A model generated the notes under the pieces. It saw only the letters and a program-made list of their open reading frames with translations. It was not told the DNA's origin and searched no databases. This document shows, in pieces, positions 2,160 through 49,900 of a DNA stretch of 64,000 nucleotides. The stretch spans positions 36,395,727 to 36,459,726 of the forward strand of contig OZ029916.1 of NCBI GenBank assembly GCA_964023275.1, given 5' to 3'. Each line of letters opens with the position of its first letter. Position 1 is the first letter of the stretch. The position numbers and the translations under genes were made by a program. Source of the DNA: Norana najaformis (Eukaryota > Annelida > Clitellata > Crassiclitellata > Hormogastridae).

Positions 2160-3186
2160 TTGAATCATAGCGTGGTGTCGTTTCTACGTAATTTACGTAA
2201 TCTTCTTAGAACAAATAATTATGCTGAAGGGTGACATCGTGCTTTCCAGCAAACTGCCGACTGTCACCACCCAACGGTCTACAAACTAGTGGAATGTGTA
2301 CGCTCTGGACAGGATTTAGTTGAACAAAGACTAGAGCGTCACTAGGCAGGAGAGGTCAGACAGCCTGGCACCAAGAATAAATAATATGCAAATAAATCGT
2401 CCAATACAGGCTGTAACACAAGCTTACAGACAGTTCAAATCACTATCTTCGGAGAATTTCTCACAATTTGGAACTGTGACGGTTTACTATTTTTGAACTA
2501 TTTAAAACAGTATTCAGATTGACATAGGCCTACTGCTTTTAAAGAAAAATTCTGTTAGGTGAATGCGTTTTTACGTAATTATTATTCTTGCATGCCTGTA
2601 ATTTATTTTATATCTTTCGGACGGGGCGGGGCGCTTTTGTCGGGACCCTTTTGTCAGAGGCGCTTTTGACGGTCCACCTGGTAATTTAATGTTATCTGCA
2701 GGCATAACATGATACGGATTGTTCTCAGAACCCATCGGTACTTTTCCACAGTGAAATCCTCCTTGTTTAAGTCTGAAATTATCGGCTCTGGTGTCGGGTT
2801 TACACTGCCAATAAATAATTCTTACTGTGCCCAAACAATGTCGCCTATATCGCTCCATGGGTTGTGCGGTCATGCATGGTAGCCTGTGATCACGGTCCTC
2901 AGAGTTTTTCTCACGTCATGTATGGCTTAATGACCAAAGGATGATTTGCTACGTCTGACGTACAGGCTTGATCTTTGTGCATAGACTAGACCAGAGTACA
3001 TAGACTACCTTGCATGCACTATATACAATTGTAATATTGCAAGGAATAGATAGCCTAGCCTTTCTTCCCCCATTATGTACTTATTCAACGTACACAAGCT
3101 CTCTACATCATGCGTAGAGGTGTTTACAGGTAAGACTCGATTCAAAATTTAGAATAGAAAAATGAAGTTCTGCCTCGACTCGTAAC
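2160..3186. other. Region upstream of the fucosyltransferase gene
   Basis: No gene is recognised. The 100-residue minus-strand open frame at 2571-2873 has no family signature. On the plus strand, about 2682-2725 resembles the start of fucosyltransferase exon 2 and is listed separately. The promoter of the fucosyltransferase must lie here or further upstream, but no core promoter motif is distinctive enough to call. Confidence 0.4.
2682..2725 (+). pseudogene. Possible decayed copy of fucosyltransferase exon 2 start
   Basis: An acceptor-like TTATCTGCAG is followed by sequence matching roughly three quarters of the first 32 or so bases of the real exon 2 at 4688, including the shared core GATTGTTCTC and a CATC block. 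Similarity fades after about 40 bp. It could be chance, but the exon start and acceptor line up and a clearer copy lies at 4588. Confidence 0.3.
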
Positions 3187-5060
3187 ATGATATCGAAACA
3201 ATTTTTCAGTTCTAAACAAAAAGCAATGGATTGTTATCGATATAGGTATTTTCGTGTAAGCCTTCTAATACTGAGCTCAGGTTTAATTACAGTGTTTTAT
3301 GAGTATTTTAAACTGACAAGAGCAACACATACGGCACTGATCAGTTCAAAGGGAACCAATAGTAAACTGATTTCGTCTGAGCAAATGTTACTCCAACTGG
3401 GATTCATTTGGCCGAGGAAAAGTAGCGAAACGAATGATCGTATCTCAAATCAAATCAACTTTATGACTCGGTTGAATTATTCCGGCAAATTTAAGGCAAC
3501 AAAAGTAAAATTAATATATCATGTGCCTCATTCTAATTACGGGAATCCACCGCCCGAAGGTCAGCATATATTTGTATCTCAGGGATGTCCGATACAGTCC
3601 TGCAGCCTGACAAGAAACCTGGATGATGTTAGGAAAGCTGATGCTGTTCTTCTCCAGGGATTTCAGGCTTCTATGCTGAAGGATATGTTGCCGAAGCCAC
3701 CAAATCAAATTTGGATCATGACTGGTGGAGAATCACCTCCACTGACTGCCCGCATGAACATACTAGATGCACGTGCATTGAAAAACCTTGTCAACTGGAC
3801 AATGATCTACCGCAGAGACGCCACTATATCAATGCCTCGTGGCAAATTTGAGACCTTTCCAAATTTCACTCGCATAGAGAATTACTATTTGGCGGATGGA
3901 GTCAATTACGCCGGGGGAAAGACAAAGAAAGTTGGCTGGTTCGTCAGCAACTGCAACTTCTCGATGAACAGTGGCCGAGGAAACTATGCCAGAGAACTGT
4001 CCAAGTTCATTGATGTCGACATCTATGGACGATGCGGAAATCTGCGCTGTCTCAAGGACAAATCGACTACTTGTCTTGAGCTGCTTCGGAAAGATTACAA
4101 GTTTTACCTGGCTTTTGAAAATAATTGTTGCCGGGGTTACATAACAGAGAAGTTCTTTAAGAACTCATTAACGTAAGTATATAATGCGAAACGCTTCAAA
4201 TTTTAAGAAAGAAAATGGTACTTTTTAAAAAAGATATAAATCTTTGGCAATGTTTCTACCTCAAAGTACTGCAGGTTGGCCTGAGTGATCTGATCTAGTA
4301 TTCGGGCTTGAAAGGTTATGCATCAAACGGTTAAAATAACATGCAATAATTAAACGTGAAAACTTTTGACTTTTAATTATTGCATTTTAGTTTTTTCTTT
4401 CATGTTGTTCCAATAACAATACTTTACTGTGAGCTGTCCGCTAACGTCCAAATGATTGGCCTAACCAAAATGGAAATGCCTTTACTATATCATGCATTCA
4501 AGTGGTCTTGGTCTTGGTACAAGCGCCTTGGCAAAATCATACTAAGGGTTTGCTATCAAATTAATTGATTCATCAATGGTGTTTTAGAATTACGTCATAT
4601 CGATTGTTCTCGGGGAGTCTCCACAAGATTTCAAGGCATTTGCTCGGTCTTGATCGAAGCCTAATTTTGATATAATTCTATCTTCAGGAATGACGTCATA
4701 CCGATTGTTCTCGGAGCGCATCCAGACGACTACAAGGCCTTGGCTCCACCCAGTTCCTACATTCACGTCGACGACTTTGAAAGTCCGAAGGAACTTGCAG
4801 AATACCTCCATCTTCTCGATAAGAACGATACACTATACAACGAATACTTTCGCTGGAAGAAAACTGGAAGGTTCATTTCCACATCCCCTTGGTGTCGGCT
4901 GTGTGCTCTTCTGCAAGCTAATGACGACAGAAGCTATGTACACTGGTACCCCGACTTCCACAAATGGTGGGAAGAGGGCGTCTGTCTAAAAAAGGTGACT
5001 GATGGTCGATGGCAGTCGTGGAAAACAGATAATAGCTATAACTACAGTTCATCTATTTAA
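3187..5060 (+). CDS. Alpha-1,3-fucosyltransferase (GT10 family), two exons
   Basis: Golgi type II membrane enzyme expected to transfer fucose from GDP-fucose to N-acetylglucosamine of glycans. Exons are 3187-4172 (donor AC|GTAAGT, phase 2) and 4688-5060 (acceptor TTCAG), giving 452 residues. A short basic N-terminus is followed by a membrane anchor at about residues 23-40, then a stem. Family hallmarks in order are PPNQIWIMTGGESPP (region around the ExP motif), NWTMIYRRDATISMPRGKF, and the GDP-fucose-binding block FENNCCRGYITEKFF. Exon 2 supplies the C-terminal part of the catalytic domain, including VIPIVLGAHPDDY and the terminal cysteines. The usual FENS is FENN here, a mild change. The first Met gives a good anchor; a second Met at residue 15 is a less likely start. 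The exact linkage made is not deducible. Confidence 0.93.
4588..4660 (+). pseudogene. Decayed tandem copy of fucosyltransferase exon 2 start
   Basis: Located in the intron about 100 bp before the real exon 2. TTTTAGAATTACGTCATATC and the following bases match exon 2 (GAATGACGTCATACCGATTG onward) over roughly 65 bp. The translation matches VIPIVLGAHPDDYKAL as VISIVLGESPQDFKAF. The copy ends at a stop soon after the homology fades. Using its own AG would shift the frame, so it looks like a dead duplicate, though a truncated alternative terminal exon is possible. Confidence 0.75.
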
Positions 5061-16185: not shown

Positions 16186-19100
16186 CTAAAGGCTCAGAAG
16201 ACAGGCAACACCCCGTCCAAAGAGAGGACTGTACTGCCCGAGGTACTCTGGCTGATCCAAGGTCATCGAGCTAACGTCACCTTCATACAGTGACATATCT
16301 GGCTAAAACAACATGAAAAGCCTGTTATCTTTCTTGTTCTGGTATAGGGATGGGAAGAACTATACTAAATACCTTACAGCATTTTTATTTGCAGCTTGTC
16401 TTAAGGCACACCTTTGTAAAGATCCATTTTCAATACCACTGACAGGTTCTCAAATGGCGCTCAGTAAGGAAACATACATACATTTAAGCTGAGGGATATA
16501 AATACGACGACACAATTAATGCACACCTTGCTGAAGGATGTTACACAACATGTGCTCAACAGGCTCAACTCTGTAACATGGCATGTACATTACCAATACA
16601 GCAAAGAACTCGTTCATTATAAGAATTTCTATAGGTCCCTGTAGGGTATCAGCCAAGAAGAGCTCCAAGTCGAATTCATAAAAATAATAATAATAAAAAG
16701 AGATCAACTTGCCAGATGTCAAACTTCAGTCAGAGGCAAGGACAGTTGCCCATGGGAGGGAATACATGCATGGAGAAAAGATGAAACTAATTAACTGAGT
16801 ACTGTACATACTGAATAAAACGTTTTGAGTTTGGTAAAACTTTAGAAAGTAAATAAAACTAACCAGCAGGGGCTTTACATCAAAATCAAGGTCAGTATAT
16901 GGAGATGGTGCTACGTAGCCCTCACTTCCTTCGGAACTGAAGTTGCCATTTACCGGGACTGACTGCAGACAACTCACTTGACTGGTGGAGTTGAAGCGAT
17001 CATCCAAGTTTGCACTGAATGCTGAAGAAGTCTGGGAAAGCTGAAATGGATCGAAGAGAAACTGAGGCTCTCTTGGGAGGTTCACGAGAACAGTTACTTA
17101 CAATTTCAGTTAATTACAGGGCAAGTAACATTCATATAGTGCCTTTGCAAGGTTCCTAAAAGGCGTCATATAAATAGCCACATACATACACACACATACA
17201 TGTCTGCTTCTGTCATAAACTAGACCCTCCTTTACAGTTCTTAACAAACTACATATATAACTAAAGATGCAATGTGAAAGACTTAAACACAATGATCGGC
17301 CAGCAGGGCAATGTAAAATAAGATCCGGTAATTTTTTAATCTCTTAGAGGCCTGGTCAGTGATTGAAAAATCTGTTGGCCGAAGCGCAAACATAGTGACA
17401 GCAGTCTAACAAACCAACCTTTCCTTACCGGTTATATGGCTCAACAAAGAGTTGCCAATTTCATCTGCATCAGGATTAGAATCCCAGACACAGAGGTGAA
17501 AGGCAAATGCATTAGCAATCTGCTACAGTGCAAATTATCATTCTAGCACAGCGAAAAATAACTACCGTACCAGAGGAGAATCATCTCTCCACGGCACTGA
17601 AGTTGAGGCATCCTGTGAAGAAGAAGGTAGTTGGTCCAGGAAGCAGAACTCCGTCTCAAATTCCTTCAGTGACTGTTCATCATACAAGTCAGTCTCTGAC
17701 AAAGAAAGCAGTGGATTTCTGTCTGAAAAAATAAATTCTCAATTTTTTAGTTGCAACACAATAATAATACAACAGCATTAAATTGTATTATGTAGTAGTA
17801 GTTCCAATGTTTAACGACATCTTATGGCATCAAAGGCTGTTGATATTGTTCTCCTCCTTTATCCAGGCTTGTGACTAGCACCACCTGGGTACAGCCATGG
17901 AGGAGTTTATATGACAGGTTATGTTTACATATATAATAAATAAATATATATATATACTCATTTATATAGAGTCTTGGAAGAACTTCTCTGTAATGTAGCC
18001 TATGACTCAAGTTAAGCTGACATAAGTAGTGTAGGCCAGATAGGTAGTCATTTGTATTGTAACACAGTGTACTTAAATCCAAGCCTCTCTCTTCAACAAT
18101 TACAGGTCACCAAAGAACTTCTGATACTGCCAGAGAGAAGTTAGAGAAAGTTTCCGAGAGGTACTTAAAAGGTGCTAAGGATGCATCCACATACATAAAT
18201 ACATACATACATACACATACATACATACAAGGGATTACATATACTGAAGTCCGTACAGTTTCTGTTTTCATAAAGTTTGCATAGATTCTGTTTGAGCAAT
18301 CAATCGTTGCTCCCTAGTTAAACTGGTTATAAAACAAAGATTGCTACCAAACAAATCCTCCTGCTTGCAGAAAGGAAGGTCATATACCATTTTTCCAGCC
18401 GTCCATTCATCTCTGCAAACAAATAAAATCTGAATCAACTTCACACAAGTTGTTGAGAATATATACAGAAAGCAAAAAAATCCTAAATCACATAGGAGAA
18501 ATTTGCTGGTTGACCCTAGTGCGACACGCTGGCTGAAACTGAATACAGAATGCGTGTTTATGCCATTTCTTTCACTAAGCAACATTTACCAAGCATAAAT
18601 TTTGAATAAATCTGTATTTAAGTATATGGACATTTATATACCGCCTTTAGATAACAAAGGACAGATTGGATTGTGTGTATCTTGACATTCATAATAGTGC
18701 CTTTTAAGATCTCTTAAAAGCACAGAATAACAAATAGCTCATAGATTAAAAGGCAAGTTATCTATTAGTACCTATTACCTTACCTACCAGTAAGCTTACC
18801 TTATCACACTTATGAGGAGGCCAGCGATATAACTAGACAAACTTTATAAATAACTAACTGATACTTGCAGATTTAAGGCTCTGCAACACTTCACCGTTTC
18901 CTTGGCGCGACTTTCTGCCTGAACCTTCTCGTGCTGTTGAACGCTGAAAAGAAGAGAAGCAATTCACTCATATCATCACATTTAATGCTCTTCTTGGTAA
19001 TTCATAAGCAAAGGAGGGAATATGTAGAAAGTTGAGGTGCCAAATAGAAAAAAGGATGGAATTTTACAATTTGCTTGGAAGACGATGTCCAGTTACTGAA

Positions 19101-22100
19101 TAGATGCTCTATTCTTTCAGATCTCTGCCTACCCAGATTCACCTCCTGAATTTTTTAAAACAGTCACTTTCCCCTGCTGTGCTGCAAGCTTTTCTGAGTT
19201 GATACACTGAAGAGATGCAGCATAAACCATTGTCCGTCACATTACATAACAGTGCATTACATTATAGCATATGAATTACCTGTAGGCAAAAATTGATGCT
19301 GCACTGTCTTCTTCCAACCTGCGTCTCCCTTTCCTCGGTCCGCGGCTGCACAAACCCTTCGATTTGCGTGACTTCGGTGTTTGGTGATTTCTACAAATTC
19401 AAGACAATCATCAGAAACTCAAAACTACAGCCATTAACCAACTTCTTGTCAGTTGTGTTTTTTATCTATACAATACAACTTATATTTATAAAGCGCTTTA
19501 ATAAAACAAATGTCTTACTCAAAGGACACGTTACAACATAATAATTAGTTATAATACTGAGAGAATAAATGAGTCTTAAGTTTTAATTTAAAAGTATCTA
19601 TTGAAGATTGAAGATCTCTCTGCACCTCATATTCAGACTTACTGACTTTGTGCATGTAATTAGTGTCAATAAATAAATTGAGCACTATTATAATAGAATA
19701 AATAAATAAAATGTTGTACAATGATGTTATTCACTGCATACAAAGTTCATTCATTGGAACTGGGCAACTCTGTTAATGGTTTATGTTAGTTCCTTCTGAG
19801 TTTTCCTTCTGACATCTTGCTAAGTGATGTACTGCATTCTTTGCAATTATAAAATACTGGTGCTCAGGATCTACAGTTCAGTTCTGTTCAAATAAAATTG
19901 CTTCACTATCTAAACTATTAGGCTTTACCACTTGTAAAAATACTGTTGTTTTAAACTAACCTAGCAACAGAAGCATCCTCGTCGTCTGACAACCACATTC
20001 GTTCAGTACACAAAAGTTGTTGCGTTCCATTGTCTCGATTATCTTCCTCCTTTACAAACACCGACTAACACAAAGCACGCCTCTTATAAAAATGAAACAG
20101 TGGTACAAATTACATAAGTTATAAACAGCTGAGAAGCTAGCAGCAGTAGCACCATTTACTTTCAGTGATTTTGCTACAGAATTAATTGTATTAATTAGCT
20201 GCACAGCATGCACCCTCAATCAAACCTCGAGCTTTGGAAAACCACCAGTAGAGGTGCTATATAAATTTACTTAATGAATGAATAACAAGGATTTTCAACA
20301 GGTTCTATTTCCACTTCACAAGTGCAACTTTCCAGGAAAGAGGAACACCCTGTTTCCAGGAGGCCAGGACCCTTGACTTCCCTCTGGAACTTATGCTTCT
20401 CCAACCTGAGTCATGCTTCCTGTGTAGTCGCCAAAAATCCCAGTGACATCCAAGGTTTCAAAGTTCTTGATTGGCGTATGAGCCCAGCATCTTGATGGTG
20501 GAAGCTTGACTGGAGTAAATCCTATCGCTGGTCCAGCATCCTTTAACAAAATTAAACAATTAAAAACCAAAAGAATTTACCACTGTTCAACAATTATTTG
20601 TTTGTAAAATGCACATTGTTTTGCACAGGATTCATATAATCAGCAACTTAAGAAGTCTTAAAAGGTGCTAGATAAATGTCCAGATACATACAATCTAATC
20701 TGACCTGTCCAGTCTAATCTGTTCATGCAACATGGGGTGCAAATTACCAATCTTTTCCAGTCTTCTCCATATAAGCATTACCACTGGAGGTATTACCATC
20801 ATCTTGAGACGACTAAAACGATTATGGATCTTCACAGCAACCCCAAATGATTTCTGGCGAATTAATCTAATGGCGCTATAGAAGTCTTTAGAATAGATTA
20901 GGCCATTACCAACATCAGCACAGGTGCAACTATAAAAATATGGCAGAAGCAAAAAGTTCATTCATTCCTTCAGTCCATTTAAAACAACAGCAAGAGGCAG
21001 CCATCGACAAGAAATGTTGCGACTTCATTTTTCCTGCCTCACTATACGAGTTTAGGTCATAAAAATCAGCATACTAAGCTAGCACAGGTTAAGTAGATTA
21101 TTCATTTAAGATAAGAAACTATGAGATAACAAAGTCCCTACTCCTTCACTCTTCACTGGGGTCAATTCCAACGACTTGACATTGGCGGCTGTTCTTCGGC
21201 CACTAGGCCGGTTCACACCAGACGTCTCGGTCATTCCATCAACCTGTAGAAAGCCAGAAATTCATGTCAAGTATCAGTTGATGACCTGATTATTTATTTT
21301 GATTAATTAACGTTATGGTAATTTATTTTCGATTAACTAGGGTATGAAATTAGTACCATGACTGTACATCGTCAAGGAAGATAAGAAGGCAGAGGAGAGG
21401 ACTGGTCACCTGCCCTTATATGCAGAGGCTTTGAACATGAAATTGCAAACGCTACACCCACGGCTGTCTCTAACGGTTAACTTCATAGTCTGTACTTCTT
21501 TTTATTATAATTGTTATCCACATCATCATTATCATTAATTAGTCTTTAATTAGGTTCATATGACTAGGACAAAAACAAGACATGACAAAATCGTCATTCA
21601 ACGTGAAACCGTTATTCACAATCATAACAGAGTAGAAAGGTTCAATTTGACAGGTCAGAGACTCCAGGAAAAGGTTAAAGGGGCATGCAAGCTCAGTATC
21701 TTGGTTTTGAAGTCTGTATATCGAAAGCCTCTGCTTGCCTCTTTGTCGAGTCCGCTGCAGATGTACCTTGTGGGATCACGGGCATTCTTATGGTCTCTGG
21801 TCGCTTTCCTAACACGGAAACATTAAAGAGCTTTAAAAAAGGTGTAGAGCAAATGAAGAATAAGAAATGGAACAATGTACATCAGAAAATCTTCAATCTT
21901 GGGGATTCAAAGGGACTTGGGATTCAAAGGGACTTGGGAATTCAGAGGAATTTGGGGATTCAGAGATGCATAAAGCACATATACCCCACCTAAACTTGAT
22001 GAAACGACATTTCTCAGAATTGCTGTTTCTAATTATGTCCCAGACGCCACTATTCTTCACCTCATGCTTCAAATCCTGGGTCTAGTCCGATATTTCTGAT

Positions 22101-24619
22101 TATTCCTGTTTTATGGCATGTAATGCATTCTAAAGGTTCAAATGTGCCACATAAATGTCCAGATAAAAGGTATGCTTATACTTATAAATTTAATGTATGG
22201 ATTCAGCACACACTAAAGCAGCCACAACTTTCGAAAGCATAATTATCTGGTAATGAAGGACATTCACTGTAGCCAATGAGCAGATAGTAATGAATAGCCT
22301 TTGTAGTAATCCAAAAACGATGCCTGGCAGTAGCTGAACCCCCAACATGGTAATGAACCTCACTGTACTTAAATACTGGGTTTTTCTTGTAAGATACATT
22401 GTTATAGTGTGAATTCTGATGTAACGTGGTCAGTTAAATAGATCCAAAATTTAATCCAGCATTTTCATGCAACTGGGTTCAAAAACAACTTCAATACAAT
22501 AGTGTATTTGATGTTGCTCCCAAAACTTAGCGTTATAGAGACTAGCGGTCTACAGGACCTTGTTAAATTAACGTATTTGATATTGCTTCCAGAGGTATAA
22601 ATGCAATATCTGACTGTTAGCTCAATCAACAATATAGCTGCAAATGCAATATCTGACTGTACTAAATGCACAAATACAGCAAACATTCACCTACACCTTA
22701 GGTTCAGATTTACTGACTTTGCGCACAAGATAAGTGCTTTAAATAAATACATAAACAAATACTTACTTTGAGGCTGTTGTATTCTGCTGCTTCTGGGCAA
22801 CAACAAAGCTCTCCTGTAACTGGTTGACCTTTTTTGTACACCAGCGGTTAATGTTCTTAATGCCTTGCTTCTCAGCTACAAAGTTTTGACAATATGTTGG
22901 GATTCAACATCAGATTTAATCTTTGTAAATTACTTGTAAAACTTGTAATAGTACTTAAATATTTGTAAACCTTGACAATCAAATTTAATGAATAATACAA
23001 ATACTGATGTTATCAGTAACTTAGATTAAAAATTTCTATGTTACTGAAAACAGGAACTACCAAGATCTATTTGGGTAACATGGTGGGTAAAAATACAACA
23101 AGTAAGAATACTACATGCTTGTTTATGCCCTTCTATAGAGACTCTTGAGAAAAGAGATCCTTAGGTTGAAGGATCGTTTGAATGAGATGCACATACAATC
23201 GCAATACAATAGGACACCAGGTGTGCCTCAGAACTCGTATGGGGACCTCAAAAGGACAGAGGCCGAGTGGGCACCAGTTAGTAATTAACGAATGGTTACC
23301 CATCCAAGCTCTGATGTTACTTAAGTTGAATGCATTTGCCAGTGCTTTTTGAACAGCAACAAGTGGCCATCCAAGCAAAGTAGCATAGCATTATGCTTTT
23401 TAATTCACACATTAATAACACACACAATTTTGGTAGTATGGAGGGAGATTTCTGATATGTTTGCCTTCCAACTCTGTGTTCAAAGTTTGAAACCTGGTGC
23501 ATCGTTTGAAATCTGTGATTTCTTGTTAAGCCATTCAATCCTTAATGAAATGTGCACATTGCCCATTTGCAAACTTATTGTATTCATGCTTGTGCTACAG
23601 CCAAAAGACCCTTCAACCACAGGATAGTGCCTCTGAGTACCATTTTGTCAGAGGTGGCAGTGTATACTGTAAATAGAATAAAATTTATCAACTAAATTAA
23701 ATAATATTATTTGAAAGATTTGTCTAAAGTCAAAGCCAAGAAAATCACTCATACAAACCTTTCTCCTCCAACAAAGTGACCACCATGCTCTCCAGAAAGT
23801 CAATGTGCTTGGCAGTTTCCTTCAGAATTATCGCCTGGAGAAAATCAGTATTATTGCAAAGGTATTAAAGCTTACTCTGATTTGTTGTCCCTTCCTCAGT
23901 TTAAGCACACTGATTCAGAAAGCCATCTCTTAGACAGCCATTTCCCCATAGCTTGTGACAGGTCCTTAAAAGGTCTGTTTAAATGCTTGAAATACTTATG
24001 CACATACACATTTATGTACTTATGACTGAAGACTTACTTCTTTTCAAAATAACGGTTTATTTTATAAATAAATTTAAAGTTCACAAATTGTTTTTCACGT
24101 ATTTATACTGCCTGCTAGCAAAACAGTCACTGTTATCTACAGCCAGTTATCTCTGATATATTAAATATATTAAAATACTATATATAAAAATCACACAACA
24201 CACTGGAACACCCTTTTAATGCTGTTTTTGGAACCTATATCAAGCAGGTCTACCCTGCTAAAATGAGGCTGTAACATGAGGTCATGTGAAAATTATAGAG
24301 TTCGTCTCAAAGTTAAATTTTCAATCCATATTCCCAACTGCACTGTATCAGTATGCATATCTGAATGATGTACGTCATAAGAAGGACAGTGTATATTATT
24401 AAATGATTATAAGCTTCCCGAATGTTCTATAAGAAATGCTATAACAAAAGCTTCAGAAAATACTTTGGATATCTTTCTCCTGGTTGCTCTCTTTGTGACT
24501 GGAATAATATGTTTCAAGGTCTCGTAACAGCAAGATAAGTTGGCACGCCATCTTGCATCAGATTGTCTGCGGCGCACTCTCATTTGATTTTCATTTGAAG
24601 AATTACGAGAAGACCTCAT
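16186..24619 (-). CDS. Atypical bHLH protein, candidate STRA8/MEIOSIN-like
   Basis: Exons, in transcript order on the minus strand: 24619-24464, 23834-23759, 22875-22767, 21243-21142, 20540-20406, 20064-19961, 19390-19280, 18943-18865, about 18412-18340 (edges uncertain), 17722-17571, 17040-16864 and 16302-16186. All other junctions keep phase except 22767/21243, where an exon is probably missing, and the joins around 18410. Residues about 12-75 form a bHLH: RVRRRQSDARWRANLS, LKHIIP, a loop, then KISKAIILKETAKHIDFLES. The basic region has Asp where E-box-binding bHLH proteins have the key Glu, and S-x-A-R-x-R-A-x-L resembles STRA8 as I recall it. A charged region (PKSRKSKGLC, RGPRKGRRRLEEDSA) leads into ASIFAYSVQQHEKVQAE and EKWYMTFLSAS, which loosely fits an HMG-box layout. 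The C-terminus is acidic and Ser-rich. It is certainly a spliced gene; the family call is tentative. Confidence 0.6.
18181..18232. repeat. ATAC/CATA microsatellite
   Basis: Runs of CATACATACATAC follow the tail-like AGGTACTTAAAAGGTGCTA at 18158. Similar runs at about 10853-10895 and 17178-17200 also sit beside the same kind of tail, so these microsatellites appear to be element tails. Confidence 0.8.
20865..20910 (+). mobile_element. LINE 3'-end remnant
   Basis: GGCGCTATAGAAGTCTTTAG matches the terminal motif of the LINE at 7590-7920 and copies at about 35650 and 48480. It is a short fragment in a bHLH-gene intron. Confidence 0.4.
21895..21967. repeat. Short minisatellite, about 18-19 bp unit
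   Basis: The unit GGGATTCAAAGGGACTTG is repeated about four times with drift (GGGAATTCAGAGGAATTT, GGGGATTCAGAGATG). It lies in a bHLH-gene intron. The open frame across it has no family match and is probably not coding. Confidence 0.75.
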
Positions 24620-26261: not shown

Positions 26262-29200
26262 CTAAATGTTTAGTGTGTTGGTCGCTTGTGCACTAAATTT
26301 GATATCTGGTTTGACAGCAGCATCAGAGGTTGCTTTGGAAACTAATTCAGCTGCAGTATCTTCCGGAGCATCTCTTGTCTCAATAGAGGCTTCTGGGTCG
26401 ACAGCAGCATCAGAGGTTGTTGTGGAAAACTTTCCAACTGCAGAATCTCCTGGAGCATCTCTTGTCTCAATAGAGGCTTCTGGGTCGACAGCAGCATCAG
26501 AGGTTGTCTTGGAAAACTTTCCAACTGCAGAATCTCCTGGAGCATCTCTTGTCTCAATAGAGGCTTCTGGGTCGACAGCAGCATCAGAGGTTGTCTTGGA
26601 AAACTTTCCAACTGTAGAATCTCCTGGAGCATCTCTTGTCTCAATAGAGGCTTCTGGGTCAACAGCAGCATCAGAGGTTGCCTTGGACATCTTTCCAGCT
26701 GCAGAATCTCCTGGAGCATCTCTTGTCTCAATAGAGGCTTCTGGGTCGACAGCAGCATCAGAGGTTGCCTTGGAAACCTTTCCAACGGCGGTATCTTCTG
26801 GAGCACCTCTTGTCTCAACAGAGGTTTCTTCTTCTGGGTTATCACAGCAGCATTGGTCACTTGTTTCTGCTGTCTCCCTCTGTTAATGACAAATTGTAAA
26901 ATTATTGAAGCAAACATATTAATCAAATTAAATAAAATAAATCTCCATCAAGAAAACAAGGAAAACAAAGGTGCTGTCCTGAAGTTGTTATGCCCAATTC
27001 TTAGATCTAAAGTTTTGGCACAAACTTTACTAGAGCAGTCTATCAAGTCACCAATTTACATTTTTGGTGGTTGACAGACCAAGTCAGGATGTTAAATAAT
27101 CTAGTCCTCTCGACTTGCTAATTCGAACACCAAAGTAATGCAGGGTTACAATGAAAGTATGTAACATGCCATGATAGCCTAGTGTTTGCACCTCAGCCAG
27201 TGATTCTTCAACCGGTCCATTGAACTGTGCTTCTGAGGCGTAGCTATAGAGCTGCTCAAACAAGTGTATTACCATTACCTTCTACCGGAATGAATATATA
27301 TACTGGCACATTGAAAGCAAACCTCTGAAAGTTTCTCAAACATTCCAAAATAGGTTTTCTTATCCTTCTGTCGCAAGTCCCACAGCAGGCGCTCATTAAT
27401 GGACAGCTGAAACCGGGCAGTTCGGTTGTCTGGATCAATATTCAGAACAGCTCTGAAGTCCTTCATTGCATCCTCAAAGTTTTGCAGACCATGGTTTGCC
27501 TAAAAGAAAGGACGCACAAATTCACTGATACATGCCAAATCTAATCTAATGATTTCTATAACGTTGCTTAATCATTGTGCACAGAGTATCCACTGGGTGG
27601 CACCCATAATACAAACTCGTAAGCTCGATTGGAGAAGCCCAGTCAAAACCTAATAGGTTAGAGAAACCAAAAGTTAGGCTATAGTAGGTATGCAAGCTGA
27701 AACCGACAAATCTTAAGTTTCAACAGACGAGTCTTAAGCTTAGACTTGTGAGTCTTTGTCTAAACTTCTCATTTCTGACCCACAGAAATTCAACCTGGCT
27801 TCTCCCATGAATTTGGATTTTGATTATTTCACTTGAAGCGATCTTTGAGTGATGCCTTGGGCATAATGATACCCTACAATACTGCCACGGATTCATTTTG
27901 TGGACCCCAGTTATCTGCCATCTGTAGCGAAGGCCAGTCGTGAAACCACCCCTACACCTAGAGGTATGATAAATTACTCGGGACACAAAATAATAAGGCA
28001 CCGGTAACACATTTACTTACTCGCCTCTGGAAACTGCTCAGCAGTGTGGTCCTGAGTTCAAAAGAACTTTCAGCTGACGTGCAAACACAATCACAGCAAT
28101 CCAATGACAGGACACCTTTTTACAATACTGCACAGGTGTCAACATAAGAACAGCTAGATGATATTGAATGAGCAAACTGGACTAACTTGGCCCCTTCTGT
28201 ACAATGCCTTCTCGCATTTTGGGTCAAGGGTTAGGGCCATGTTGCACGCTTCAGCTGCGTCTTTGTATCGGTCCAGTTTCAGAAGGCAGGCCGCTTCATT
28301 GAGGTAAGCCGCCAAGAGCATAGAGTGGCGCTGTTCTTTGGCACTGCCTTCCAGCAATTCTTCAAACTGCAAATACTCGATCACTTTCCTGTAGAACCTT
28401 AATGCCAGCTTTATCTTTCCTGCCTACAAACAATATTCTGAACTTTTACTTGCATATATGCATTCATATCTTTCATTCATGCACACATTTATATAGCACT
28501 ATAACATGAAATAACTCTTCCACGTGTGGGGGCCTAGTTAACTGTTTTTGAAAAAACCGATGTCTCACGACATTTTACAGCAAACTTTGGCCCAAGCAGG
28601 TTGCTTACAGATAAGACTAGGAATATTAGGTGTCCTATTGTTTTCTATTGATGACATCAGTTTTACATGATGCTGACCTTGTAATAGCAGGTGCCTTTCT
28701 CTTTAGTGATGACGGACTGTTTGAGTTTCTCCTCCAGAGTCATATCAAAGAACTCTTTTACCTAATTAGAAATATTAAAAGGCAAAGCAAGAAATTAAAT
28801 GTCTTATTTAAAGTTTGAATTAATCAGTAAATTCAAGTTCTCCAATCTTTTCATATTTCAGACTGTGGACCCTGAAATCTAGGCAAGGGCCAGGGTCTGT
28901 GTGATCCGAAGTGTTGCAGCCCTCCAGTACCAGGCTTGGTCACAGTGTGGGCCAACAAAAGCGGAAGGTGTTGGATAACACATGGGGTGAACATCCCCAT
29001 AAGGGTTTTCCTATTATCAGATAATTCCCTGATTAAACAGATCTGAAAACTTGCATCAAGATTTAATACTGTAATCCTGAAATTGAATCATCCTTCAACC
29101 AAGCTTCTGAGGAGTTCCTACGGAAGTGCATAAACAAGTGTGTTACCTTTACCTTCAGTTTTTATGGCACCCCATTTTCTGCTGACATTCTTTCAATGCT

Positions 29201-33480: not shown

Positions 33481-36400
33481 ATGAGTGTTGAATCTGGAGT
33501 CGACGGTGATTCTTTGGGTGACACGATGAAGATTCTTATTGCCACGGACATCCACCTTGGCTACATGGAAAAAGATGGAGAGCGCACAAATGACTCTATA
33601 AATTCATTTGAGGAAATTCTGGAAATAGCTGAGAAAAATGATGTTGACTTTATCCTCCTAGGTGGTGACTTATTTCATGAAAACAAGCCATCACGGAAGA
33701 GTATTTATGGCTGTATCGAGCTATTGAGGCGATACTGTTTAGGTGACAAGCCTTGTTCTGTGGAATTTCTCAGCGATCCTTCGATTAACTTTGGCCATAC
33801 ACATTTTCCTGTGGTGAATTATGAAGATCCAAACTTCAATGTTGCCATTCCTGTCTTCTCAATTCATGGTAACCATGATGACCCAGCAGGTCAGGGAAAT
33901 CTCTGCTCACTTGATCTCTTGCATGCTGCCGGTTTTGTGAACTATTTTGGTAAGGTGTTGTCATTAGAAAACATAGAAATCAGTCCTCTGTTGATGCAGA
34001 AAGGCTCGACGAAACTGGCCTTGTATGGCCTCGGTTCAATACGAGACGAGCGACTGCATCGCACCTTTTGCCAGAAGAACGTTAAGATGCTCAGACCAGT
34101 TGAGGACAAGGATGATTGGTTCAACGTCTTTGTGCTTCACCAGAATCGAGCTAAGCATGGCCCAACAAACTACATTCCCGAGCAATTTCTTGATGATTTT
34201 CTAGACCTCATCGTATGGGGTCATGAGCATGAGTGTAAAATTGAGCCATCGTGGAACGGCGTCCAGAATTTCTTCATCACACAACCTGGTAGTTCCATAG
34301 CAACATCACTCAGTGATGGAGAAACAAAAGAGAAGCATGTTGGGCTTCTCTTCATCAACAAAAAGACATTCAAACTGAAAAAGATCAGGCTCCAAACAGT
34401 GAGACAGTTTTATCTAGAGGATATTGTGCTGAGCGAGACACATGTTAAGCCAGAAGATCCGAATTCAGTTAAAAAGATCGAAGCTTACTGCAGTGAGAAA
34501 ATGGAGGAACTTCTGGAGCAAGCTGGTGAGAATTTTCATTTGTTATGAAAAGTAACCCAGCTGTTGTCATAGTGTTGAGAATTCAGTATTGCTCCTTCTA
34601 AGGGCTTACAAAAGACCTTGCAAACGATATATAAATTCTGTGTTATTCGGCAGATGTTGACAAAATGATTGTCTTTTAGAGTCTTAATTTGACCAAAAAC
34701 TATGTATTTTCATCTCTGCTCGTCACATTCAGTGCATTAAAGTCGTTAGATTTAGGCATTTATAAGTGCAAAAATGCCAGATTTAAGTGAAAATGTATAG
34801 ATTTGGATATGTTTGACCAAAATATGTTAAAAAGTCAGTATACATGACCTCAGCTGAAAACGCCTTTCCGACTCATTTTTGGAAAATTATGTGGTGTGAC
34901 TTAAGACTAATTTAGTCAGAGCGGGTCACATAAAAGGACTTGTCAGCACCTTTGAGAGGCCGTTAAAAGCACTATAGGAGTGTTCATGTATCATAGTTCC
35001 ACCATTAACTATAAACTATTTGGAGACTGTTTTGATTTGATTAAAATTCTTATTGTTATGAGTATGATTTGATGTCTCTCCGCCTTCATTTGAAATTGAG
35101 TTTTGTGTTTCCTTTAAATGGCACTATATAAATTTATGATATGCTGTATTACATTCCTCTTGGTTTGTTTGCTAGAGAAAGAGAGAATTGGAAATCGAAG
35201 AATTCCTGAAAAGCCGTTGATTCGGCTTCGAGTTGACTACAGCGGAGGTTTCGAGGTCTTCAGTAACAACAGGTAGAAACATTTCTAAGCTTGTGAACGT
35301 ATAATTTAACTGATTCTTTTATTTTCCACAGTTTATATTTAGTGCCATTATTAATGGCAAGAGTGACTTTGCATTAATAACATTGATCATTCTAGCATAC
35401 AGCTGTGTGCACTTCCTAGCCTTTAGTGAACTGCTTGAGACATGGGGTAAAGGGTGCATGCATTCCCACATAGTTATCTGGTCATGCTTATGGAATATGT
35501 GTTGGTCTTAAATCTATTTCTCCTTAGGGTTTTTCTGTGTCTTTCCAGATCACCTATCTAGTTTTTGACCTGATCAAGCCTAGATTTTGACATTTGCTTA
35601 AAACGTATCTATCTGTGACCTTCATTTTATGCCTTTAGCTTGATTACAGTGGTGCTATAGAAATTCTCAGATCAGATGAGATAACTGTATTGTGTTTGTA
35701 TGATGTGTTTGTTGTATTTCGGGAGTTTGTGGTTTTCCTGTTGAAATCTGTTTTGCCTAGATTTGGTCAGAAGTATGTGGATCGTGTGGCCAATCCAAAA
35801 GACATCATCTATTTTCACAGGCGAAGATTCATGAATGCAGATCGACTGTCCTCGAAAGCAGGTCTCTATCATGCTGAGAATTGTATTGGGGAACAGGAAA
35901 CTGCCTCTTACCAGTTAAAACTATCTACCACTGAAGATAAATTTTGCCCATATATTTTGCTGCAGCATGCAGGTCTTTCCTCACGATGTTTACAACAACT
36001 GAAGGGCTCCCTGGTCTTCTTTTCAGAATACTCAAGTTACTCACACCTTTAAAATCACATGATATGATCTTTGGTTGAGGTCTTTTTGTTCTTTATGGTG
36101 TATATTGTGGGTCATGCTTTATTCTTTAGATTTTCTTTAATTCTTTAGCTTAGCTTAGCTTAGCCAAACATCAATTCATGAATCTGAATGAAATAAGTCA
36201 TATTACAGTAAAAGTTTGGTAGGGCACATTCCATTAATGCGCTAATTCAGTTAATGCAGCAACATCGAGTCTCCCAACGATACCAAATTAACACGCAAAA
36301 TTCATGGCGAACAGCAGTTCGTGTACATCCAACAATATGCTGTAAGGCATTTCCTGCTTTTTATGTTTGCCAGTACTGGTGGGATGTATCACTTATATAT

Positions 36401-39400
36401 TTGTACTGTCGTGCTGTCACTATTTTATGTACATGTAAGTATTTATAGACATATGGTATATATAAGATATATTAAAAGAGGCCAACATTTAATGATCTCA
36501 TACACAAAGAGGTAGTAAACAACTATTACTTCGACATTAAAAAGTTATTTGAGGCAGCTTCACTGTAGGCTCTTTGTACACGATATATATAGAGTCTGCT
36601 AATAAACCATGTGGACTAGTTTTAATCTAACTTGAAAATATTGTTGTAAAACAGTATTTCTAATATCTTTTGCTGCTTAAATATGCATGGTTTAAACCAG
36701 TTTAATGATTTATTGTGTATTTAGTGTTTGTATTCACATTTTTATTTATATTTTTTTAAATGAAGTGAAAGGTCTGTGTACATTAAGAATGTTGTAACTG
36801 CACATAAGAAAAAACAGACCTATATATGCACATGTGAAATGCCAATTCTGAGATTTTTCAGCATATTTCAGTAGCACACGTTCCACTATCATGCAATTCT
36901 CACAGCTTGACTCCCATCAATGGCACATTACAGGACTTTTACTGTACTAAATGTACTCTTGATTTGACTCTAGAATTGCAAGTGGGAGCATGTGTTTATG
37001 TTACAGCTCCTGTAACTATTGACGTTAAGGCTGAGTCTTTGGACAGTACCCGTGTTGAAGACATGGTTCGAGAGTATTTCCTTAAAGCTGATAAGGTGCG
37101 TAAACTTCCTCCTGTAAAATCAAGTAATTAGTTCCAATGCTTTTAATAGCATACTGACTGACATCTTTTGCAAGTTTGCTGCTAAATATGCTGCTAATAC
37201 TACAGCATTTCATGTGCATCTCCATGGTGACACTGTAGAATTACTGAGAATAGATTCATGTGGAAAAATGCTAGCATTTGAGTGCAGCATCTGGAGTTCA
37301 AATGTTAGGTATTGTAATCTAATCTACACTGCACCATTTCACGAAATTCCTTACAGCACAAAACTGTTTACATGTATTTTTTTATCCAATGATGAAAAAA
37401 GATAAAAGGGTAAAAAACTCTCGTTGCTTGTGAACAAGAAACCAGAGCAGTGAACTGGTGATCTACTCTTGCACATACTGGTAATCGCAGCTTAATTTGT
37501 TACACCAGTTTCATATTCATGTTACAGTTAAAGGTTTCCTAGTTGAATTATAAATCGGTTTCACTGATTTCTCTTCCATGTTTGTGTTTCATGCTTGCCG
37601 TGTTTGGCCGATTTTGCAGAACATGCAGCTGAGTCTTCTAACAGAACGAGGTATGAGTGATGCAGTCAAGGAGTTTGTCGATAAGGAAGAAAGAGATGCT
37701 ATTTCAGAACTTGTCAAATACCAGCTGCAAAAAACACAGGTTGTGATCTTCTTTAAAATAGATGACATTAAGAATATATGAGCAATGTTATAAACTGGGA
37801 GGGTTTTGCAGTGCTTTTCTTGGATTACTTGTATTGAATGCTTTTAACAGTAATATCATCCGATCCAAAGAACATGCCTCTAATGAATTTTAGCTAAAAG
37901 AAGTGTAAGGCAGGAGTAACTGCTCTGCTGGATTTAAACCATTGTAATTGTATTGTAATTGTAATCTGACATTTATAAAGTGCCACTTCAAGAATAGACT
38001 CATCAGGGGCGCTCCCGACCCGAACCAGTGAGACCACTGTCGAATAATACAGTTTTCAGGCGCTTGCGAAACTGCGGAAGGGACAAACTGAGGAATGCAA
38101 GCCAGAGCCCTCGGGAAAGGCGATTCCAGCTATTAGGTCCAACATAGGCAAAGCTTCTAGACTGCACTGTAGTAGTGCGCATACGAGGGACAGTCAGGAG
38201 TCCAAGGGAGGCCGACCGGAGAGTGCTACGGCCTGGAACCAAGGAGACCGGAATGCAGAAGTCCCTAAGATATGGTGGAGCTGAGCCAACGAGACAATTA
38301 TGCATAAGCGTTAGGATCTTGAACTGGATACGCTGCTGAATGGGAAGCCAGTGCAGAGTGTCCCGCATAAAGGAAATTATATGGCCATACCTGGGGATGC
38401 CTCCAATAAGACAGGCAGCAGCATTGAGAACAGACTGAAGATTGGAAATATTGGCAAGTGAGAGTCCAGCAAAGATAGCATTACCAAAGTCCACCCTGGT
38501 GCAGATAAGGGCATGAATTAGAGTAGTAACGGCATGAAAGGAGAGGGAGTGGCGGATGTTACGAAGCTGACGAAGGTGGTAAATGCATGAGTGGGAGACA
38601 CTGTTAACATGATCGGTCAAGGAGAGTTCCCAGTCCAGAACAACCCCAAGATCACTGACTTTGGTTGGTTCCTCATGTATTATTACACTGGAGAATTTAG
38701 AATTTTAAAATTAGATTGTCCTACATTACTGTATCAATGGATGATGTTACGGTTGACAGGAGCATCTGAAAAAACGAAATCCAACTGATGATCAACTTGA
38801 TGAAGAGGTTCTGAGATTCAAGGAGGAACGAAGGAAAAATATAAAGGAAGAAGAGGAAGAAGTACAGGAAGCAATCAAAAGAGCACGCTCTAAGCGACCA
38901 GCAGACAATTTGCCAAGCGATGACGAGTCTCGACAGCCACGTAGTGATGACGATGATGGTGATGCCGATCAGTCTAGAGAAATCACAGCTCCATCTCGTG
39001 GTAGAGGGTGTGGAAGAGGTGCTGCTGGATCAGAACGAGGTCGGGGCGGTGGCCGCGGCTCTAGGGGAGGAAGAGGAAGGGGTAAGGCTGCTCCAGCTGT
39101 AACCAATAACAACACGACTTCCATCAAAGACGTATTTGCCAAGTCAGTTTCAAAGGCCAACAAAGTCAATACATCATTTGTGTGAGTATTATTGCTAGTT
39201 TTTTTACAGTACACTCATTCTGGCTACAAACTTTCCCAACTCTTCTCATGACTAGTGATAATAATTAAATGTATTTGGATATATCCGAGCCACTGGCCCA
39301 TAAAATCACACCCTGCTGTCAGTAGATGAGCATAATAAATGAGCAGTTACATTACAATGCCTTGCCTGCCTTATCTGTGGCTGACCACGTAAACTCTCTC

Positions 39401-46991: not shown

Positions 46992-49900
46992 ATGTCGAAT
47001 TGGAGGACGATAACACAAAGTGTCCGGCTTCTTGCCGGATTTCTCCTGCTAATTCCGCCTATTCTGGCGGACGAACACAACCACATTGTAAGATTTTGGT
47101 TGCATGTTGAAAGTTCACCTGCTTAGGAACCGCCGATCTCGTTTAACCCATTAATTGCTGCCCAACATGCTTATTACACTCGTTACTGATTTGGGGGCCT
47201 ATAGGACCACTGTAGTATAATTCTGTTGTGTGCAGTAGCGTGCCTTCAAATTCAGTTTCCGAAGCCGCGGTGACTACACGCTCGTATGCTACCAGTACAG
47301 GTATAAACCCACTGCGGCCTGATAAGTCCATTCCCATGTGCTGGATTCAGAATATAAGAGTCATTCTCTTTTACACCACTACGAGAAATATGAATTCTAG
47401 ATAATTAGGAGAAGAGCAAGTGGAACGCTGGAATATGTTCATATATATTTTGCCCAGCAAGATGCCTTCTGGATTTCTGCAAGGTACAGATGCTGTGCTC
47501 ACGACATATACAAATGTATTTTGTGGTGCTTAGCCCAAAGTTGCTGTATGATAATTTGTGTGACCACGGTGTCCACAGCTGTGATATGTTTTTAAATCAT
47601 AGAATAGCTCATATGAAGTTCAAAAAATGATTATTAAATCCCACTGACATTCGAGAAGTCTTTGTGAAACACTGACATAAAATGTGGATAAATAACTGTC
47701 CTCAGTTTTGGGATTTGTCCTACTATTTCTTACCTTAATTTCTTAAAGCATTAATTAATTTAGAACTGTACCATACATTACTTTCTGTACAATGTGTAAC
47801 CTTATCATAGCAGTACTGATTACTGGTGTTGGTAATGAACAGTATGAGGACAAGGAGGAAGTGGTTCTGTGGATGAATACGGTTGGACCATATCACAACC
47901 GTCAAGAGACATACGCCTACTTCTCGTTGCCGTTTTGTGAGGGACCAAAGAAGGACATCAGTCATTACCATGAAACCCTAAGTGAGGCGCTACAGGGAGT
48001 GGAATTGCTCTTCAGTGGCCTTGATATTGACTTCAAAGGTTATTGACCTTCACTTACCAATTATTTTTGCAGTAGTTAGATTCAGCTTGAACTATGTGTC
48101 ACTTAATTTTCCTTTTATGTTGCTATTATCAACATCTGCAATTTTCAGCTTTTAAATTTTGATAGATTATTGCTGTATTTGATTTTGAACTCATTACTGC
48201 CATCCTCAGCTGAAGGTGGCAGTACAGGCCCTCAGGGAACATTATTCAGTCATGGGCTTACACAATGTTCTGCTTGGAGACAGTCAGATCATGTTGCACT
48301 TTTATAGCAGCACTTTTGAAAAATTCTACAAGAATGCTACACATGTATTGTAAATACCGTAGCCTGGTTTCTCGTTTCTCTGACCTATTGGAATTCAACC
48401 AGACTTCTACACCCGATTATGATTTTGATTGCGATTTTCGCTTGAAGGGACCATCGACTGATGCCTTGGTCATTATGATAACGGTACTACAGAAGTCTTT
48501 AGACTATTAGATTATAATGTGTTCAAGTTGAATGCGTGTACATATGCATGTAAAAAGTTTATATACACACATGTGCTTGCTTACACCAATCAGGTTATTG
48601 ATAATTTATGAAGTTTCTGTTTTATCAGCGAATATGTCAAAGACGAAATACTGTGAAGTCACTTTGACAGAAAAGAATTACCAAGCGTTTGTCTATGCTG
48701 TTAAAAATCACTACTGGTATCAGATGTACATAGATGACTTGCCAATATGGGGTAAGTTGATTTCAGGGTCAGTTTTTTGTAATTTCTTGCTGCCATCTGT
48801 TTTCTTGAGGTTTGCCACTTCTGAAGAAGTGGATTATTTTAGTTGGGTTATTCCCATTGAGTTATTCCCCTTGGGTTATTCCCATTAACTTTTCAAATGA
48901 AATTACCTGGAAGTTAGTGTTATGGGCCATTTGCTTCTGGCATGAAATTTGAAATGTGATTCTGTGGGCACTGAAAATCATTACATAACATACCTAACAC
49001 CTGTACTGATGCAATAATTTTGGCAGGCCTGCAGTGGTCTGAATGTGTCAGAACGAAGGAATAGACTAAGGTCACAGATGAGTCGACTGATACATTTCAT
49101 TGAATAACCCCGATCTGTTGCAGTGGATAGAAGCAGAACCTATATAGATTATTCATTGGTATAGGATGAGTTACTTGTATGATTACAGTTTTTTGTATCT
49201 GTATAATTGCATGGCTTTTGTTGCATTTTATTATAACTTTTTTCTCAGATGTTTGCACATACGTTTGCTTCGTTCCTAGACCTATGCTCTGAACTGGGTA
49301 CAACTTTTTCTTGTTTGGCCTGTCTCATTTGATTGCCATGCAGATCAGAAAATGTGAGCTGGTCAAGAACCGTGTTGGCCTGGCTCAGTACTGCTATGAT
49401 TAGGTCATTGTGTTGAGAAGTGGGTGTAAAGATGCTGGTAATAAGATAATTGTAAGATTGCTGCCTGACAATTGAATTAAAATAAGGTTTTTTCTGTGGA
49501 ATTTCCATATTCATTAATCCATGTTGCCACCCATTGAAACTTCCTGCATTAAACTTTGTCACTGAGATGAATAAATGTCACCTTGTCACCTTGTGCTGTC
49601 AGCTCTTTGAGCTCTAGCGACCGTCATGATCAATCTTCTCCATTTCTTTCTTTCCAATGTCGCGTCCCTTAGTTGTGCCAAGTTCATTCCAGTTGCTTCG
49701 TGTATCTTGTCCATCCATTTTTTCCTTGGTCTCCCTTGTTTTCTCTTTCCCTCTCCACAAGCCAGCATCATTTCTTTTTCCAATCCATCTGATCTCATAA
49801 CATGTCCAAAGAACCTCAGCTTTGAATAAATGTAGAAAATTTAAATAAATAACAAAATATTATGAATGATATATTGAAGGGATTGTGGGTGAAATTGGGA

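Follow-up and report, generated by a model that had tools for sequence, protein, structure and literature searches.

STRA8 switches mammalian germ cells into meiosis. The protein has been called a vertebrate-specific, recent meiotic trigger (PMC4729902). No STRA8 was found in Ciona (PMC9776925), and an amphioxus Stra8 ortholog was reported on the basis of reciprocal best BLAST (PMC3769385). Among the open PMC papers on STRA8, MEIOSIN and BHMG1, as excerpted, amphioxus accounts for the one report of a non-vertebrate ortholog, and no claim for a protostome was encountered. Here, we describe a single-copy gene on the minus strand of a 64,000-nucleotide stretch of genomic DNA (the window). It encodes a basic helix-loop-helix (bHLH) domain with a STRA8-type basic region and, further along, motifs of the RB-pocket and cyclin-dependent kinase (CDK) types. 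Judged by its sequence, the gene may belong to the STRA8 lineage of bHLH regulators, as a divergent member from a protostome (lophotrochozoan). We give this reading a probability of roughly 0.45; it is likelier than any single rival and not certain.

The bHLH domain and its likeness to STRA8

The first two exons, joined in phase 0 (KISK/AIIL, the slash marking the intron), make up the bHLH domain (Pfam HLH 30.2 bits, E 3.9e-7, cut-off 20.7). Mouse and human STRA8 and the ordinary bHLH sequences used for comparison were written out rather than taken from database records. In a MAFFT alignment the gene reads D-A-R-W where TFAP4 has E-R-R-R, Asp taking the place of the E-box Glu and Ala that of the next Arg. 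An earlier note on this DNA had described an atypical bHLH with Asp at the E-box Glu, which the alignment bears out. The ERXR motif is altered in the basic region of the gene as it is in STRA8, which lacks the first Glu and the last Arg in the register of its authors (PMC7810945), a register from which that of our alignment may differ. The start of helix 1, S-x-A-R-x-R-A-x-L, had likewise been noted for its resemblance to STRA8. It is common to the gene and both STRA8 proteins and is seen in no other of the 41 alignment rows (3/41); none of 42 bHLH-bearing loci of the same genome carries it (39 distinct places, among 141 HLH matches listed). The longer string RRRxSxARxRAxL is also common to the gene and STRA8 in the alignment.

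When exon 1 alone was compared with Pfam, bHLH_STRA8 (15.4 bits) ranked above HLH (13.5 bits), both under their cut-offs. Against the whole bHLH, bHLH_STRA8 (PF23175) scored 20.1 bits (E 6.8e-4; 19.5 bits in another run); the mouse and human STRA8 proteins score 173.6 and 154.6 bits. This model was listed for none of 17 ordinary bHLHs at E<=10 (for MLXIP, among the best 25 of 28 families). By pairwise score over the basic region and helix 1, STRA8 was joint second of 30, after MNT and level with MXD1; over helix 2 it was 18th of 30.

Trees were built from 40 rows (41 with human STRA8) and 63 columns, which bear at most a moderate claim on placement. They included 28 vertebrate rows besides STRA8, the pairwise set numbering 29, and the comparison set was without SOHLH, TCFL5, FIGLA and MEIOSIN. 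The gene formed a clade with mouse STRA8 in the 40-row tree (support 97/97) and with mouse and human STRA8 together (95/94). Five of six tree variants kept the grouping with STRA8: those without MLX (97/95), without ID1, TCF3 and MXD1 (97/97), without AP4 (97/97), without the basic region (99/68) and with the basic region and helix 1 only (93/86), the last two each missing one of the two usual thresholds. With STRA8 in the tree, most of the branch leading to the gene was the stem common to STRA8 (2.43; end branch 0.25).

The gene is present as a single copy without a paralog in the 608-Mb genome, searched with the model protein. This search returned 14 matches, 12 of which (E 9.8e-4 or better) lie inside the window gene. 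The other two (E 0.3 and 1.9) fall on C15 and were rejected as chance: they read with stops, have no bHLH and lie outside the 141 HLH matches.

The gene model and the protein beyond the bHLH domain

On the minus strand, from 24619 to 16186, open reading pieces flanked by splice signals form a multi-exon gene, in agreement with the spliced gene proposed earlier. The full complementary DNA is a model only, and several exon ends have at least two options. The exons, all on the minus strand, are as follows.

Exon 1, 24464..24619, minus strand: start codon, followed by the basic region and by helix 1 (VRRRQSDARWRANL...YETLKHIIP); ends KISK/, phase 0
Exon 2, 23759..23834, minus strand: helix 2 (AIILKETAKHIDFLESMVVTLLEEK)
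Exon 3, 22767..22875, minus strand: extension beyond helix 2, read as AEKQGIKNINRWCTKKVNQLQESFVVAQKQQNTTAS; frame by eye
Exon 4, 21767..21808, minus strand: uncertain
Exon 5, 21142..21243, minus strand: first TPVK site (LELTPVKSEG); several 3' end options
Exon 6, 20406..20540, minus strand: GFTPVK and HTPIKNF, the second and third CDK-type [ST]PxK sites
Exon 7, 19961..20064, minus strand: LxCxE-type LLCTE, then the acidic run DDED; several 5' end options
Exon 8, 19280..19390, minus strand: Lys/Arg-rich block
Exon 9, 18855..18943, minus strand: 3' end at 18865, 18859 or 18855; claimed start of an HMG-like region, unsupported as HMG
Exon 10, 18353..18412, minus strand: MNGRLEKWYMTFLSASRR; 5' end at 18412 or 18410; weak 3' end
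Exon 11, 17571..17722, minus strand: beginning of the acidic, aromatic-rich tail
Exon 12, 16864..17040, minus strand: tail; 5' end at 17040 or 17031
Exon 13, 16186..16302, minus strand: coding region ends here with the stop codon

For exon 3 the frame was picked by eye, and the top-scoring splice model reads this exon in another frame. None of the exon versions tried between 22767 and 21243 connects exon 5 through good splice sites to exon 3 as read here.

Beyond the bHLH, the protein contains three CDK-type TPxK sites, one in exon 5 and two in exon 6. Three [ST]PxK sites were reached in 46 of 20000 shuffles, the pattern having been chosen post hoc. Exon 7 encodes LLCTE, an LxCxE motif of the RB-pocket type with acidic residues after it. 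While LxCxE alone arose in 1193 of 20000 shuffles, LxCxE with at least four acidic residues among the next 10 arose in 21 of 20000, by a criterion again set post hoc. STRA8 binds RB1 and p107 via LKCLE, a motif called conserved in vertebrate STRA8 (PMC10600341). The C-terminus of the model is acidic, as had been claimed, with a net charge of -17 over 145 residues.

An HMG-box layout had been proposed for the middle of the protein as well. This proposal did not hold. No Pfam HMG match was obtained at E<=10 in the protein, no HMG chain was found among PDB sequences (one chance match), and the region of exons 8-10, scanned with an HMG profile made for the purpose, did no better than shuffles, ranking 28th among the best 201 of 205 rows, most of which were its own shuffles. 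The home-made profile is a weak test, in which the box of STRA8 itself reached only 5.6 bits, and that box has no Pfam HMG match. In STRA8 the HMG box is a Phyre2 prediction only (PMC6392498). It covers residues 216-268 of the mouse protein, and a counterpart went undetected in the gene.

Weighing the placement against other explanations

Several observations count against membership in the STRA8 lineage. The bHLH_STRA8 score of 20.1 bits lies below the curated cut-off of 25, and with the long model it drops to 17.6. Ordinary bHLHs cross-match other subfamily models at 21-22 bits (USF1 with bHLH_ILI 21.9, MLX with INO4 21.0, TFAP4 with COE1_HLH 21.4), and therefore the bHLH_STRA8 score alone proves little. 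By BLOSUM score over the whole bHLH, TFAP4 (76), MLX (70), TAL1 (64) and BHLHE40 (64) precede STRA8 (62), which is joint fifth of 30, level with ID1 (62). A search of the genome with mouse STRA8 gave no match; since even the window gene was missed, it neither backs this gene nor excludes another. A six-frame profile search with PF23175 gave no match at 0.001, and both searches are weak because the exons are split. In the sixth tree variant, restricted to the loop and helix 2, no clade of the gene and STRA8 was seen. Approximately unbiased (AU) tests left the groupings of the gene with TFAP4 (p 0.061, 0.062), with MLX (0.128, 0.144) and with STRA8 plus AP4 (0.232) unrejected. Of 16 quick trees, three placed a shuffled STRA8 decoy with the gene, at SH-like approximate likelihood ratio (SH-aLRT) support of up to 91, compared with 97 for the real sequence. 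The LxCxE motif stands mid-protein in the gene and is C-terminal in STRA8. The tails appear unrelated by sequence, since their alignment scored 34 and 70% of shuffles did equally well or better; homology of the tail to STRA8 was rejected, nothing past the bHLH resembling STRA8. The STRA8-like bHLH of the earlier note stands in part: the exon 1 ranking and the trees speak for it, and the sub-cut-off score, the unrejected alternatives and the end of similarity after the bHLH speak against it.

The main alternative is that a bHLH-zipper group (TFAP4 or MLX/Mondo) gave rise to the gene as a rapidly evolving offshoot, specific to its lineage, in which the E-box contacts were lost; its likeness to STRA8 in the basic region would then reflect convergence and long-branch pull. 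We regard such an origin as a real possibility. In that case the protein would pair through its HLH with members of the parent family, or inhibit them. TFAP4 and MLX give the best scores over the bHLH and over helix 2, and the AU tests and the decoys fit this origin too. With STRA8 omitted, the gene became a long branch (2.71) beside MLX/MLXIP (95/82). Placement with Myc/Max/Mlx relatives, which the earlier note had named as telling against its proposal, was thus observed in part, in that setting. The phase 0 intron site at KISK/ recurs in all three AP4-like genes of this genome (K[LM]SK/), but it is no group mark, because two ASCL-like genes share it. What speaks against an offshoot is that the three AP4-like genes and one MLX gene (C8:21757310-21758838), all with normal basic regions, are located elsewhere in the genome. 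The window gene is therefore not the ortholog of TFAP4 or MLX, which is ruled out, a conclusion compatible with descent as an offshoot. In the alignment the AP-4 basic region ANSNERRRMQSIN is absent from the gene. Nor does the gene agree with MLX/Mondo orthologs in its basic region, introns or the MLX C-terminal domain, and the MLX introns read sit at other places. Moreover, grouping the gene with AP4 is worse by 12.5 log-likelihood units, and neither parent group explains S-x-A-R-x-R-A-x-L.

It is unlikely that the gene is a MEIOSIN-type member of the meiotic pair, or the single pre-duplication gene for STRA8 and MEIOSIN. In MEIOSIN the bHLH comes first. The genome yielded a single gene of this kind, which would suit this origin, and MEIOSIN is described with bHLH and HMG domains like STRA8 (PMC9604137). 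However, the gene gave no HMG signal, and LxCxE is a feature of STRA8, RB1 not having been pulled down with MEIOSIN (PMC10600341). More improbable still is an orphan bHLH of another atypical germline group (SOHLH, TCFL5, FIGLA or similar); these three groups lie outside the comparison set, but bHLH_STRA8 is the sole Pfam bHLH subfamily model listed for the gene.

For a member of the STRA8 lineage, we infer a dimerization partner, RB binding, control by kinases and a role in the germ line. The protein would dimerize via its HLH, and its altered basic region could not read the E-box normally. It might then steer its partner to other sites, or sideline E-box bHLH factors, as reported for STRA8, which binds non-E-box sites and is capable of interfering with factors that use the E-box (PMC9604137, PMC7810945). 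LLCTE may bind a pocket protein of the RB family, cyclin-dependent kinases could tune the protein at the TPxK sites, and the acidic tail may activate. In this way S-phase entry would be tied to the germline transcription program. A link to retinoic acid is left out of this mechanism. More tentatively, the gene might be a true protostome ortholog, either of STRA8 itself or of the common ancestor of STRA8 and MEIOSIN, that carries the RB-binding motif although its host lacks a recognizable retinoic acid receptor (RAR).

Genomic context and comparison with known systems

The source animal was placed by its Hox genes. Sixteen homeodomain loci were read among 32 matches listed. In one, the homeodomain is followed by KLTGP, which we take to be the Lox5 peptide, and in five by QxIKELN, presumably the UbdA peptide of Lox2/Lox4. 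These peptides point to a lophotrochozoan, in line with the earlier view that the gene is of invertebrate origin. Antp-like homeoboxes occur in several separate groups, on C1, C3 (three places), C4 and C6 (loci L069-L084 span C1, C3, C4, C6 and C7). Together with the three AP4-like genes, these scattered groups suggest a large-scale duplication in which Hox regions were multiplied. Large-scale duplication is known for clitellate annelids.

A human RAR DNA-binding domain, likewise written out, matched 129 receptor pieces in the genome. Identities were highest for a 24-residue piece (71%, by eye ROR) and a 23-residue piece (70%, unassigned), followed by 68% over 60 residues (NR2C-like), and the best-scoring full-length piece, also unassigned, reached 62%. 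Eight pieces were read (L057-L060, L065-L068), six of which look like HNF4 (two), COUP, NR2C, ROR and Rev-erb/E75; the remaining two (L057, L067) are unassigned. A clear RAR DNA-binding domain was not found among the 129 pieces, and retinoid control, to which the earlier note had linked the gene, is disfavored for this reason. A diverged or unassembled RAR in the genome is possible.

Other features of the window are listed below.

3166-5060, plus strand: GT10 fucosyltransferase gene
26262-27074: several open frames on each strand, encoding recurrent peptides (DAAVDPEASIETRDAPGDS among them); looks by eye like an imperfect tandem repeat
32313-29165, minus strand: two FKBP-domain pieces, perhaps one gene
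33481-34545 onward, plus strand: MRE11, with 355 codons in one open frame that no intron breaks
38006-38704, minus strand: by eye the remnant of the end of a long interspersed nuclear element (LINE) reverse transcriptase; no Pfam match
47759-48888, plus strand: pieces resembling a TM9SF (EMP70) gene; weak Pfam match (17.3 bits, cut-off 27)

The MRE11 of the window matches PDB chain 3t1i_A (MRE11A) at 498.7 bits; vertebrate MRE11 is split by introns in the corresponding region. The GT10 gene lies about 28 kb from MRE11. In human, FUT4 lies near MRE11, so the linkage in the window may be old.

If the placement in the STRA8 lineage is correct, the origin of STRA8 would go back to the bilaterian ancestor, and the switch would be far older than vertebrates. 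For a true ortholog, the meiotic-entry switch too would date from that ancestor; its ties to RB and the cell cycle would predate those to retinoic acid, and retinoid control would be something that vertebrates imposed on an older factor. The animal, perhaps lacking RAR, would allow STRA8 function to be tested apart from retinoid control.

Compared with known systems, the gene shares with MEIOSIN (BHMG1) the bHLH, whereas the combination of bHLH and HMG box is not seen, the HMG box being undetectable by sequence. Akin to TFAP4, which gives the best pairwise score, it has KxSKAxIL...TA..I..LE in helix 2 and an intron of the same site and phase; TFAP4 lacks ANSNERRRMQSINAGF and is represented by the three AP4-like genes elsewhere. 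MLX/Mondo proteins, the nearest group in the full tree, have a similar helix 2 (KLSKAIVL), but MLX has an ordinary basic region, different introns and its own gene on C8. From STRA8 the gene differs in a helix 2 nearer to ordinary bHLHs, in its score below the family cut-off and in showing no HMG signal by sequence. With STRA8 it shares RRRxSxARxRAxL at equal spacing to [FY]xxL[RK], acidic stretches and an LxCxE motif, and in both proteins the E-box Glu has been lost.

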